Assembly: GCA_946488855.1 (NCBI GenBank)
Contig: CAMLWC010000007.1
Location: 1 to 46,313, forward strand
Length of the DNA: 46,313 nt
Source of the DNA: an uncultured Mycoplasmatota bacterium
GTDB taxonomy: Bacteria > Bacillota_I > Bacilli_A > RF39 > UBA660
Reading direction: 5' to 3'
The translations under genes and the position numbers were made by a program. Shown here one piece after another: positions 1 through 4,808 of this stretch. The first letter of the stretch is position 1; every line of letters begins with the position of its first letter. The notes below the pieces were generated by a model that made no database searches, was not told where the DNA came from, and saw only the letters and a program-made list of their open reading frames with translations.

Positions 1-1377
1 CGAAAAGGTACAGGAAATTATGATAAAGATAGAACAATATTTAATTATAGTTATGTACCTTTATCTAAACCCACTCTACAAGAACAAGTCTATTCTAAAT
101 TAAAAGATAATAAAATATATTATAACGATGGTAAAAACACAAATTTATTAAATGGTGCTATCGTTACAAGTGGAAAAGAATTTTTTCAAAGTTTGGGAAT
201 GAAGTTTAAAGAAAGTAATAGAACTCATCAAGTTGGAAAAGATAAAGGAAAACCTATTCTAGTTCCTGATATAAAATCTAAAGAAGATATACCTAAAAAA
301 GTTATGGATTTTTTTGATGATAGTTATAAATTTTTAGAAGAACTTGTTGGTAAAGATAATATAGTATATGCAGAAATTCATTTTGATGAAGATACACCAC
401 ATTTACAATTTTACTTTATCCCTGTTATTAATGAAGTTAAGAGAAAAGTTTTTGAAACTGATACAAACGGAAATATAATTTATCGTGAAGGAATAGATAA
501 AAAAGGAAATAAAAAAATGTATCCAGTTCAAAAGAAAGATAAAAATGGCAAAAACATTTTCAAAGTTGAAAAAGGAAAATTTTTAAATTGTGATCAGTTT
601 TGGAAAACTTTAGGCGGTAAAACTTCTTATGCTAAAATTCAAGATAACTACAACAAGTTCATTACTGAAAAAGGTTATAATCTCTTTCGTGGAAATATTG
701 GCGATAATAAACATCATAAAACTAAAGCTCAAAAAGAAATTGAAGATTTAAATGAACAAATTAGTGAAATGAAAATTGAATTTGAGAAGAATAAACGACT
801 AAATGAAATAGAATTAGAAACAGCAAAGGAAATATCAGAAATTGATTCTAATGCAGTTTTAAACCCAGTAAAAAGAAAAGTTATTGGTTATAAAGATGAA
901 GATATTAACAATCTAATTGACTATTCAAAAAATATGCAGAAACAGAATTCTAATAGCAAAAATGTTATTAAACAAAAAAATGTTATTATTGAAGAACTAA
1001 CTTACAAAGTAAAAAATCTTCAAACTGAAAATTCAAAATTGAAAGATGGTCGAGCTATTAAAGAAAGAGATATAAAAATTCAAGAGCAACAACAAACTAT
1101 ATCTAAACAAAAATCAATAATTAAAGAAAAAAATTCTATTATTGAAAAATTAGAAGAAAAAGTTAATGAAATACAAGAAACTTTTAATAATTTCAAAGAA
1201 AAAATGTTTAACTTTTGTGACAAAATATGCCGAGCATTAGGTCATAAGATAGGAATTCATTTTTCTAAAAATAGCGAAATTAATTACGATGATATGGAAT
1301 ACTATGCAAATGGTGTTAATCGTAAATACGAACGACCTGAAAAAGATAAATCCGATGACTTTGATATAAGTAGATAA
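1..1377 (+). CDS. MobV-type relaxase (Mob/Pre family), 5'-truncated by window edge
   Basis: The frame is open from base 1, so the N-terminus lies outside the window. Mob/Pre proteins nick DNA at oriT to start conjugative mobilization. The family's metal-binding motif HxDExTPHxH appears at 379-408 as HFDEDTPHLQ, so the last histidine is replaced by glutamine while the other two histidines and the acidic residues are kept. After a conserved domain of roughly 240 residues comes a long Lys/Glu/Gln-rich coiled coil (about 700-1200), as is usual in the family. An internal TTG at 193 can be read as a start, but family-like residues continue upstream of it. The N-terminal nucleophile region cannot be seen. 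The gene belongs with the recombinase downstream as the transfer module of the element. Confidence 0.85.
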   Translation, partial: RKGTGNYDKDRTIFNYSYVPLSKPTLQEQVYSKLKDNKIYYNDGKNTNLLNGAIVTSGKEFFQSLGMKFKESNRTHQVGKDKGKPILVPDIKSKEDIPKKVMDFFDDSYKFLEELVGKDNIVYAEIHFDEDTPHLQFYFIPVINEVKRKVFETDTNGNIIYREGIDKKGNKKMYPVQKKDKNGKNIFKVEKGKFLNCDQFWKTLGGKTSYAKIQDNYNKFITEKGYNLFRGNIGDNKHHKTKAQKEIEDLNEQISEMKIEFEKNKRLNEIELETAKEISEIDSNAVLNPVKRKVIGYKDEDINNLIDYSKNMQKQNSNSKNVIKQKNVIIEELTYKVKNLQTENSKLKDGRAIKERDIKIQEQQQTISKQKSIIKEKNSIIEKLEEKVNEIQETFNNFKEKMFNFCDKICRALGHKIGIHFSKNSEINYDDMEYYANGVNRKYERPEKDKSDDFDISR

Positions 1378-1594: not shown

Positions 1595-1720
1595 ATGAAA
1601 TATAATATTATTGATGTTGTGGATAATAAATTAACTGATACTAAATTAAAAGAAATAGTCAATAAAAAATTATATAAAATTATTGAACTAATGGAGTTTA
1701 ATGTTAATTACTCTAAATAG
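1595..1720 (+). CDS. Small 41-aa element-encoded protein
   Basis: An ATG preceded by AAAGGAGA opens a 41-residue frame beginning MKYNIIDVVDNKLTD and rich in Lys, Ile and Asn. There is no signal peptide or membrane segment. The amphipathic stretch TKLKEIVNKKLYKIIELM could form a helix. Small proteins of this kind often precede large serine recombinases in integrative elements, but I cannot assign a function. Its stop lies just before the recombinase promoter. Confidence 0.55.
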   Translation: MKYNIIDVVDNKLTDTKLKEIVNKKLYKIIELMEFNVNYSK

Positions 1721-1721
1721 A

Positions 1722-1760
1722 TGTTATAATAGTATTGGTTATAAGTTTAACTTTAAACTT
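1722..1760 (+). promoter_or_regulatory. Recombinase promoter with operator-like inverted repeat
   Basis: An extended -10 box, TG-T-TATAAT, spans 1722-1730; the -35 region is weak. It is followed 12 bases later by a perfect 7-bp inverted repeat, AAGTTTA-ACTT-TAAACTT (1743-1760), placed over the expected start of transcription. A repressor bound there would block initiation. It could also be a 5'-end hairpin in the transcript. Confidence 0.55.
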
Positions 1761-1791
1761 AATTATTACCTTAAGTTAGGAGGTAATAGTT
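1761..1791 (+). promoter_or_regulatory. Hairpin masking the recombinase ribosome binding site
   Basis: Bases 1761-1771 (AATTATTACCT) pair with 1781-1791 (AGGTAATAGTT) in an 11-bp stem with one G-U pair and a 9-base loop. The descending arm and loop contain the Shine-Dalgarno AGGAGGT (1778-1784), and the stem ends exactly at the ATG of the recombinase (1792). This should lower translation unless the hairpin is opened. Confidence 0.55.
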
Positions 1792-3402
1792 ATGAATGAA
1801 ATGGAGAGTGTTTTAAGTAAGAAAGTATTAAGAGTTGGTATTTATTTAAGATTGTCTAATGAAGATAGAGACAAAGTAAACAAAGATGATGATAGTGAAT
1901 CTATTAAAAACCAAAGAAATATGCTTGCCCAATATATAAATAAGCATCCTGAATTTGCATTAATAGATGAATATTGTGATGAAGATTTATCTGGTGCAGG
2001 AACTTATAGACCTGAATTTGAAAGACTAATTAGAGATTGTGAAAATCGTAAACTTGATATTGTTTTATGCAAGAGTCAATCAAGATTTTCAAGAGATATG
2101 GAAATTGTTGAAAAATATATCAATAATAAATTCAAAGAATGGAATATTAGATTTATCGGTTTATCAGATAATGCTGATACTGAAGTTTTAGGAAATAAAA
2201 AATCTAGGCAAATAAATGGCTTAGTTAACGAATGGTATTTGGAAGATGTTTCTGACAATATAAGAAGTGCTTTTAATTCAAAAATGAAGCAAGGAGAATT
2301 TATTTCTCCTTTCGCTCCATTTGGTTATGAAGTATCACCTGATGATAATAATAAGTTGATAGTAGATCCTATAGCGAGTGAAATTGTAAAAAACATTTAT
2401 GATTTATATCTAACAGGACTAGGATTTACAGGTATTGCTAAATATTTAAATAGCAAGGAAATACCTTCTCCTTCCCTGTATAAATACCGCAAAGGTATTA
2501 AATTAAATGTAATTAGTAATAGACCTCGTGAAGAAATAAAATGGTCTACAAATGCCATTAAAACTATTTTAACAAATGAAATTTATCTGGGACATTTAAT
2601 ACAAGGCAAAAGAACCACTGTTAGTTATAAAAATCATAAAATAAGAAACAAAGATAAAAGTGAATGGATCAGAATAGAAAATACACATGAAGCTATCATT
2701 GATGAAGAAACATTTAATAAAGTGCAAATTGCTATGAAAGAAAGAACTAAACCAATGAAAGCAACTGGTGTTGTGCATATATTCTCTGGTAAGGTATTTT
2801 GTCTTGAATGTAATCATTATATGCGAAAAAAGAATTCTTCTAAACATGAATATTTAGTATGTTCTAATAATCGTGATGGATATGATGATTGTATAAATAA
2901 AACTTCTATTAGATATGATGAATTAGCTAATCTAGTATTAGAGGCAATCAATAAGAAAATCGAGAAATTTTATGATGAAGAAGAATTAAAAAATTTAGAT
3001 TCAAAAAAACTTGATAGCAGATTCAAGGAAAAAATTAAATCTTTAGAAAAACAAAGAACTGATATTGAAAATAAAATATCTAAAACTAGAAATTATTTAA
3101 AAAATATTTATGAAGATAAAGTAAATGGTGTTATTACACCAGAACAATTTAAAGATTTAATTACTAATTATAATAAAGATGAAGACATTTATAAAGATCA
3201 AATTAAATCAATTAATAATGAAATATCTTATTATAGAATGAAAGAAGAATCTGCAAAAAATAATAAAGAAATATTTAGTAAATACCAAAAATTAGAAGAA
3301 TTAAATAGAGTTATTGTTGATGAATTTATTGATAAAATATATATTGGTAAATTAAACGAAGAAACAAATACTAGAGATATTCAAATTAAATGGAATTTTT
3401 AA
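1792..3402 (+). CDS. Large serine recombinase / site-specific integrase
   Basis: This protein of 536 residues catalyses integration and excision of the element. It has a resolvase-type catalytic domain (residues about 12-160) with YLRLS, where Ser22 is the likely nucleophile, and SRFSRD carrying a catalytic arginine. A recombinase domain follows (about 175-300). A zinc ribbon begins near residue 338 with CLEC and continues with a downstream Cys pair, and a coiled coil runs from about 395 to 490. Length and domain order fit the Tn4451/phiC31 class. The start at 1792 has a perfect AGGAGGT eight bases away, although it lies inside a hairpin. The gene lies near the right end of the element, as expected for a recombinase beside its attachment site. 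Met4 is an alternative start. Confidence 0.93.
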   Translation: MNEMESVLSKKVLRVGIYLRLSNEDRDKVNKDDDSESIKNQRNMLAQYINKHPEFALIDEYCDEDLSGAGTYRPEFERLIRDCENRKLDIVLCKSQSRFSRDMEIVEKYINNKFKEWNIRFIGLSDNADTEVLGNKKSRQINGLVNEWYLEDVSDNIRSAFNSKMKQGEFISPFAPFGYEVSPDDNNKLIVDPIASEIVKNIYDLYLTGLGFTGIAKYLNSKEIPSPSLYKYRKGIKLNVISNRPREEIKWSTNAIKTILTNEIYLGHLIQGKRTTVSYKNHKIRNKDKSEWIRIENTHEAIIDEETFNKVQIAMKERTKPMKATGVVHIFSGKVFCLECNHYMRKKNSSKHEYLVCSNNRDGYDDCINKTSIRYDELANLVLEAINKKIEKFYDEEELKNLDSKKLDSRFKEKIKSLEKQRTDIENKISKTRNYLKNIYEDKVNGVITPEQFKDLITNYNKDEDIYKDQIKSINNEISYYRMKEESAKNNKEIFSKYQKLEELNRVIVDEFIDKIYIGKLNEETNTRDIQIKWNF

Positions 3403-3523: not shown

Positions 3524-4378
3524 ATGAATCAAGATAAAATGCATCTAATTAATAAAATATTCAATAATGAAACAATAAGAACTGTGTGGGATAAAGAAAA
3601 AGAAAAGTATTATATAAGTGTTATTGATATTGTTGGTGTATTAGCAGAAAGCGATAACCCAAGAAAATATTGGTCAGTTATGAAAACTAGATTAAAAAAA
3701 GAAGGAAATGAGGTGGCTACAATTTGTAGTCAACTGAAATTAAAAGCTTCTGATGGAAAATATTATAATACTGATGTATGTGATATTGAGGGTATGTTTA
3801 GAATAATTCAATCAATTCCTAGCAAAAATGCCGAACCAGTGAAACTTTGGTTAGCTAGTCTTGGTAAAGAAAGAATTGATGAAGTATTTGATCCTTCATT
3901 AACAATACAAAGAGCAATAGATACATATCGTGCTAAAGGTTATGATGAAGCTTGGATTGCTAAAAGAATTAAAGGCATTCAAGAAAGGAAAAAACTAACT
4001 GATATTTGGAAAGATGGTGGTATTGAAAGTAATTTAGAGTATGCAATGCTTACTAACGAAATATATAAAAGTTGGTCTGGATTTACTGCTAAGCAATATA
4101 AACAATATAAAGGATTAAGAAAAGAATCTTTAAGAGATAATATGACTGATATAGAAATAGCACTTGCTGATTTAGGAGAACTTACTACTCGTGATATTGC
4201 TTTATCAGAACATCCTGAAGGACTTAAAGAAAATCTTAAAGTTGCTCAAAGAGGTGGACAAGTTGCAAATGATGCAAGAAAATCATATGAACAGCAAACT
4301 AAAAGGTCTGCTATATCAAATCAAAATGCACTTAATTATCAATATATAGAAGAAGATAAACAAATTGAAAATAAATAA
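3524..4378 (+). CDS. BRO-N domain protein (phage antirepressor / DinD-like)
   Basis: This 284-residue protein has an N-terminal BRO-N-type DNA-binding domain (about 15-130, with YISVIDIVGVL and the IEGMFRIIQSIPS segment). A C-terminal half of roughly 150 residues contains ERIDEVFDPSLTIQRA, GLRKESLRDNMTDIEIALAD and ELTTRDIA. BRO-N proteins are common in phages and mobile elements, often as antirepressors or SOS-linked regulators; the target here is unknown. It lies between the recombinase and the element end, with AAGGACGGTG as ribosome binding site. A close paralogue of identical length lies at 45327-46181 on the opposite strand. The residues that differ are concentrated around positions 45-80 and the C-terminus. 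Confidence 0.8.
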   Translation: MNQDKMHLINKIFNNETIRTVWDKEKEKYYISVIDIVGVLAESDNPRKYWSVMKTRLKKEGNEVATICSQLKLKASDGKYYNTDVCDIEGMFRIIQSIPSKNAEPVKLWLASLGKERIDEVFDPSLTIQRAIDTYRAKGYDEAWIAKRIKGIQERKKLTDIWKDGGIESNLEYAMLTNEIYKSWSGFTAKQYKQYKGLRKESLRDNMTDIEIALADLGELTTRDIALSEHPEGLKENLKVAQRGGQVANDARKSYEQQTKRSAISNQNALNYQYIEEDKQIENK

Positions 4379-4439: not shown

Positions 4440-4464
4440 AAAAATAATAAAAAGTGTCTTCGTT
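4440..4464. other. Probable element-chromosome junction (att site)
   Basis: Upstream of about 4455 the ATPase frame reads an AT-rich, non-homologous stretch and soon a stop (4413-4415). From about 4464 it reads tyrosine-isoleucine-QRVALIRTLA, the part of an ABC ATPase right after the LSGG signature. The LSGG codons are missing, so the crossover lies at or just before them. The exact core dinucleotide cannot be defined without the other end. Confidence 0.5.
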
Positions 4465-4808
4465 ATATTCAAAGAGTTGCACTAATTAGAACACTTGCTA
4501 CTAAACCAGATATATTATTATTAGATGAACCTTTTAGCGCTCTGGATTACCAAACAAGATTAAAAGTATCGGATGATGTTTATAATATTATCAAAAAAGA
4601 AAAAAAATCAGCTATAATGGTTACCCATGATATAGCCGAAGCAATAAGTATGGCTGATAGAATTATTGTATTATCAAAACGACCTAGTGTAATCAAAAAA
4701 ATAATTGACATTAATTTAACTGACAAAAGTACGCCAATTAATAATAGAAAAGCAAAAGAATTTGCTTATTATTATGATTTAATATGGAAAGAGATTGATT
4801 ATGACTAA
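4461..4808 (+). pseudogene. 3' fragment of NitT/TauT-type ABC transporter ATPase
   Basis: The frame shows QRVALIRTLA, then Walker B with D-loop (DILLLDEPFSALD) and the switch histidine MVTHD, then a C-terminal region typical of SsuB/TauB/NitT-type importers. Walker A, the Q-loop and the LSGG signature are absent because the mobile element begins where they should be. An internal ATG at 4617 could give a 63-residue product, which could not bind ATP. The stop overlaps the permease start, so the original genes were an operon. The remnant shows that the element split an importer gene. Confidence 0.85.

Follow-up and report, generated by a model that had tools for sequence, protein, structure and literature searches.

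A conserved hairpin over the ribosome-binding site of a large serine recombinase in Mycoplasmatota elements: a likely translational brake

The gene of a large serine recombinase (LSR) from an uncultured Mycoplasmatota bacterium is directly preceded by an 11-bp hairpin that takes in part of its Shine-Dalgarno sequence (SD), and we consider it likely that this leader acts in cis as a translational brake on the recombinase. The fold is kept in many relatives although the letters have changed, from which we would conclude that the hairpin probably keeps enzyme levels low; repression of translation, and its purpose, are what we infer from the predicted fold. The mechanism is of a known kind, and this is a new family of it. 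Among the titles and abstract openings covered in the literature, we found no SD hairpin at a serine recombinase.

The window, that is, the whole stretch of 46,313 nucleotides that was analysed, is the start of a contig from a 1.23-Mb genome that is 71% complete. A near-identical locus (L041/L102, with an LSR 99% identical) belongs to Candidatus Faecisoma merdavium, of the same genus, in the taxonomy Mycoplasmatota. A MobV relaxase, a 41-residue ORF, the LSR, a Bro-N gene and host ABC-transporter genes follow one another in this order:

1..1377, + strand: MobV-type relaxase (Mob_Pre; PF01076, 5.1e-10), truncated on its 5′ side where the contig begins
1595..1720, + strand: 41-residue ORF without a Pfam family, with homologues immediately 5′ of the LSR in most relatives (comparison of loci)
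1792..3402, + strand: large serine recombinase of 536 residues, with Resolvase, Recombinase, Zn ribbon and DUF4368 domains (domain search)
3524..4378, + strand: Bro-N gene following the LSR, before the element's right end, missing from some relatives (domain search, locus comparison)
4440..4470, no strand: approximate right junction (attR), where homology to the host ABC-transporter region restarts (comparison with relatives)

Upstream of the LSR start codon we distinguish the following parts of the leader:

1701..1706, + strand: poor −35 match with 3 mismatches and a spacer of 18 (sequence)
1722..1730, + strand: extended −10 box TGTTATAAT, the putative own promoter of the LSR (sequence, comparison)
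1733..1753, + strand: 5′ part of the leader, TATTGGTTATAAGTTTAACTT, conserved within the window clade only (leader alignment)
1742..1761, + strand: perfect inverted repeat TAAGTTTAA-CT-TTAAACTTA, at chance level and unconserved as a palindrome (repeat counts, leader alignment)
1761..1771, + strand: left arm (anti-SD) of the SD hairpin, AATTATTACCT (folding, conservation)
1778..1783, + strand: Shine-Dalgarno AGGAGG, its first two bases in the loop and the others paired (sequence, folding)
1781..1791, + strand: right arm of the SD hairpin, AGGTAATAGTT, ending at the start codon (folding, conservation)

The stem encloses a loop at 1772-1780 and lies directly before the ATG at 1792, so placed that the SD is base-paired over about half of its length in the predicted mRNA, with two or three of its bases in the loop. 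An initial annotation of this DNA had described an 11-bp hairpin at 1761-1791 that includes the SD and ends at the start codon; it is found exactly there, and is predicted to be stable with the ribosome site inside it. The fold reaches −12.6 kcal/mol and is above chance (z −3.8), with z at just −1.5 when a wider stretch of 93 nt is folded. It is the strongest among the 24 ORF starts of the window that have an SD-like word (the runner-up reaches −6.0 kcal/mol), and when the related loci are added only 16 of 263 such starts reach −8 kcal/mol, 15 of which precede LSRs. The anti-SD GGATCACCTCC was found in one of the 13 genomes of the genus; the tail was not found in the other 12, as is usual for MAGs lacking 16S. 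An alternative stem, AACUUAA at 1756-1762 with UUAAGUU at 1771-1777, was rejected, being lost by eye in relatives with other loops or 5′ parts.

In the reading that we prefer, RNA polymerase would start at the extended −10 promoter, with the transcription start inferred to lie near 1737, and make a 5′ leader of about 55 nt, the last 31 nt of which would fold so that most of the SD and every base up to the AUG are paired. Loading of the 30S subunit would have to wait until the hairpin breathes or is opened, and a decent promoter would then give little recombinase, with the element mostly staying put. In relatives without the promoter-hairpin cassette, translation of the LSR would be tied to the 41-residue ORF.

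The pairing is kept in relatives despite sequence change, as seen in diverged leaders, in a sister clade and in a test with exchanged arms. We collected 72 related loci; LSRs at E <= 1e-150 occur in 49 of the 386 family genomes. The leader can be aligned gap-free at at least 55% identity in 28 of the 45 distinct rows whose LSR is at least 70% identical, two of the 28 (L089 and L039) do not fold. Folding gave z between −2.3 and −6.3 in 25 of 31 other related starts, and for the diverged leaders L104, L161, L156, L157 and L158 z lies between −3.1 and −6.0, L104 having exchanged a U-A for an A-U in the stem and L158 retaining the stem in a shifted register. No hairpin was found by folding in the close relatives L031, L039, L089 and L076/L090, nor in L098, and one pair is broken in L102, from the genus of the window. 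The first 21 coding bases, ATGAATGAAATGGAGAGTGTT (1792-1812), are almost invariant across the leader clade, and the codons that follow vary.

Covariation in relatives had been proposed as a check, and the hairpin is indeed kept with compensating changes, but column counts within the main clade are weak evidence: stem cells are paired in 90.5% of cases compared to 89.3% after shuffling, with 23 of 500 shuffles as high (32 rows, 23 distinct), since most changes are one-sided changes to G-U. In a second alignment (A4), whose 27 rows were chosen as leader-bearing with L089 and L098 left out, the values are 95.4 vs 95.0 paired, with 90 of 500 shuffles as high; a test on unique changes gives P 0.075 (0.35 for the left arm alone), and 38 of the 53 departing cells keep the pair.

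The sister clade, whose LSRs are 45-50% identical to that of the window, has the same hairpin plan in different letters (z −3.3 to −6.3 in L070, L071, L074, L213, L215, L226 and L227), with C-G, U-G or U-A at the equivalent stem positions when compared by eye. Among the sister LSRs L218, L214 and L225 the hairpin was not found in the same form, and the SD of L214 pairs with bases 3′ of it. For the exchange of arms we chose rows blind to folding, with a perfect TATAAT between −75 and −52 as the sole criterion, which gave 51 rows (27 distinct); the start of L022/L136 was moved by 6 nt, as L022 is otherwise scored from another start. Own arms pair at a mean of −13.44 kcal/mol compared to −10.02 for permuted arms, a value as low being reached in 0 of 5000 permutations, which ignore relatedness. 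Inside single clades, relatedness again ignored, values as low were reached in 122 of 5000 (main) and 67 of 5000 (sister), and arms swapped across clades pair at only about −5.5 kcal/mol. In all but one of the 27 distinct leaders, pairing between the leader's own arms reaches −9.5 kcal/mol or lower, the exception being L035, which is without pairing.

Mapped on the LSR tree, the hairpin shows clustering, with 19 changes against a shuffled mean of 35.6 and at least 11 forced by starred branches; the tree holds near-copies (the same locus twice), so that the clustering and its 54/106 are inflated. The deepest branches of the LSR family carry the hairpin, which suits an ancestral hairpin that would have been lost several times. 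Among LSR starts at least 45% identical to that of the window, 10 of 15 fold at −7 kcal/mol or lower. The hairpin as a general trait of LSRs was rejected, as only one of 34 LSR starts below 40% identity lies below −8 kcal/mol (L002, from the same genome).

A covariance model built from 22 rows, all of them hairpin-bearing, finds the leader in 24 of the 386 family genomes, in 23 cases beside this LSR or what remains of it, and in 26 of 385 genomes of the order, a set that overlaps the first, where all but G004 are at this LSR or its remnants. Before other genes in its own genome no such leader was found, and in Rfam 15 the leader reaches no family's gathering score. The lone match away from this LSR (L159, G004:C1:63270-63363; E 0.0024, one of 386 genomes) is an 11-bp SD hairpin before a short ORF, which we take to resemble the start of an ImmA/IrrE-type protein; the match is probably due to chance.

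Promoter and hairpin occur together. The extended −10 is present in 22 of 33 rows with the hairpin compared to 0 of 40 without it, and a perfect TATAAT in 29 of 33 compared to 5 of 40. The gap between the small upstream ORF and the LSR has a median of 71 nt with the hairpin (ORF in 32/33 rows) and of −4 nt without it (ORF in 37/41 rows), a count in which the short upstream ORF of L094 is spurious and the hairpin start of L044 doubtful. Long gaps without a hairpin are seen in L031, L039, L076, L214 and L218; L022 was counted as hairpin-less through the choice of start, its stem folding at −9.6 kcal/mol. Leader, TATAAT promoter and hairpin thus form one arrangement, and hairpin-less relatives mostly start the LSR overlapping the ORF or close behind it, so that the LSR family appears either to couple the recombinase to the 41-residue ORF or to give it its own promoter and a closed ribosome site. 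This alternation of hairpin and ORF overlap suggests that selection acts on tight translation of the LSR. Being conserved, short and easy to edit, the leader offers a direct experimental test of dose control of excision, and genome-writing tools could use the same design to keep integrase levels low.

The 41-residue ORF, with the core (I/V)NKKLYKII-E, stands immediately 5′ of nearly every LSR of the family, even at 46% LSR identity. It has no Pfam and no convincing PHROG match, and its product is a candidate for a directionality factor or a regulator of the LSR.

Hairpins in leaders that pair the SD and lower initiation are a general class. The stem of the window likewise keeps the SD paired as far as the start codon and is predicted to lower initiation, differing from the class in its place on the LSR of mobilizable elements and in having no trigger that we recognise. 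The main rival to a fixed brake is a regulated RNA switch, in which a trans factor would attach to the conserved 5′ leader or to the loop and unfold the hairpin for movement of the element, candidates being the 41-residue protein, the relaxase, the recombinase itself, a protein of a helper element or a small RNA. Such a switch would fit the strong conservation of 1733-1753 in the window clade, the partial exposure of the SD in the loop and the conservation of the 41-residue ORF beside the LSR. However, the 1733-1753 stretch was not found in the sister clade, the ORF is just as present without the hairpin, and neither an Rfam match nor a conserved alternative fold accompanies it, so we regard the switch as doubtful. 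We favour the fixed brake, as folding suggests no opener: the stem is predicted to be stable up to 55 °C, the fold is the same in long RNA, and no leader peptide is conserved. A protein or small RNA may open it, and a bolder form of the idea, which we think unlikely, is a clade-wide ancestral RNA switch of LSR elements in uncultured gut Mycoplasmatota/Bacilli that replaces coupling to the 41-residue protein and is opened by a trans factor for excision. Translational attenuators of the Erm/cat type also hide the SD of the main gene in a hairpin, as here, but differ in their leader peptide: the sole in-frame TTG run overlapping the stem (1735-1779) is unconserved, stopping variably or continuing into the LSR.

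Other modes of opening and other readings of the arms fare worse. RNA thermometers have the same geometry, an SD-hiding hairpin without other domains, but the fold model keeps the stem paired up to 55 °C, too stable to melt in the physiological range, which disfavours the temperature-driven opening proposed initially and makes a thermometer scarcely credible. In the transposase mRNAs of IS10 and IS50, only read-through transcripts fold shut, so that folding of the RNA keeps down the translation of a DNA-mobility enzyme, as is predicted here. Protection against transcripts entering from outside could be at work at this locus too, given a mob gene upstream in the same direction; yet the hairpin lies entirely downstream of its own promoter, and own transcripts therefore carry it and fold shut as well. 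Accessibility of the SD is moreover equal in 55-nt and 200-nt leaders (0.36 and 0.36, mean of 31 hairpin rows), and we hold a role restricted to read-through RNA to be very improbable. The reverse suggestion, that read-through from upstream opens the hairpin, is disfavoured by its persistence in longer predicted transcripts; a read-through anti-anti-SD formed by repeat I1 (1677-1707 with 1747-1777) was rejected, the hairpin being retained in folds of 1595-1830 and 1670-1800. Finally, the arms might be a DNA palindrome, an operator for a dimeric repressor rather than an RNA structure. They stand directly after the promoter, and L070, L071 and L074 have three TAACTATCA-like words around promoter and start that are possible operators there. 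But among the 38 departures that keep a pair in A4, 27 are G-U, which breaks DNA symmetry and points to RNA, and the stem stays next to SD and start codon even as its sequence changes; we find this reading improbable.

In these same loci (L070:3900-3994, L071, L074:470-571), one TAACTATCA-like word lies upstream of the −10 and two form the SD hairpin. The words may be operator sites or an RNA switch that depends on the origin of the transcript; in the fold model a longer transcript had no effect there.

The initial annotation had also placed an operator over the start site, at a perfect inverted repeat just after the extended −10. The repeat is present, 1743-1760 being the inner 8+8 of 1742-1761, but an operator finds no support in it: in this AT-rich DNA, perfect repeats with arms of at least 9 and spacers of up to 4 number 9 in the window compared to 7.8 ± 4.6 in Markov-1 random sequence (35 compared to 20.4 ± 5.1 for arms of at least 8), and as a palindrome the repeat pairs 74.1% of cells against 74.1% in shuffles. 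The region between the −10 and the hairpin folds at a mean z of −0.58 over 22 leaders, which were pre-selected by low energy so that the hairpin z from the same set is biased. Conservation is limited to the 5′ stretch 1733-1753, in the window clade, which comprises the 5′ half of the repeat and the preceding TATTGGTTATAAG; it could serve as the initial transcribed region or as a protein site without palindromic symmetry. The proposal that these controls keep the recombinase silent in the integrated state finds no support: the leader holds nothing by which integrated DNA would differ from the circular form, and the right att junction is about 2.7 kb further downstream. A role of the leader as attachment site was ruled out on the same ground, since the common host-flank homology restarts only there.

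By its genes, with relaxase and LSR together, the element is an IME with LSR and MobV; it is delimited on the right side only, the contig ending on the left. The family occupies one host site (about 4440-4500 in the window), with the same permease gene downstream on the same strand in 33 of the 44 related loci with enough sequence and absent in 11, and in L036, L038 and L044 the LSR ends within a few dozen bases of host sequence. At the junction the host sequence reads, by eye, QRVALIRTLA, which we take to be the region after the ABC signature, and the element therefore seems to interrupt an ABC-transporter ATPase gene. The gene types, MobV relaxase and LSR, are those of Tn4451-type IMEs, which have a MobV relaxase and a serine integrase. 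Tn4451 has a low site specificity according to a review (PMC5704250), unlike the present family, which has one and the same host gene region on its right flank in those 33 of 44 loci.

In L012:1-1760, the left part of a related element, we read from the sequence a divergent XRE-like gene, a small HTH-like gene and a RepA-like ATPase, followed by the relaxase. A second LSR of the same genome as the window (G000:C22:7401; L002, L228:1563-1598), 32% identical, has an SD hairpin of its own in another sequence, which folds at −10.6 kcal/mol (z −4.6).
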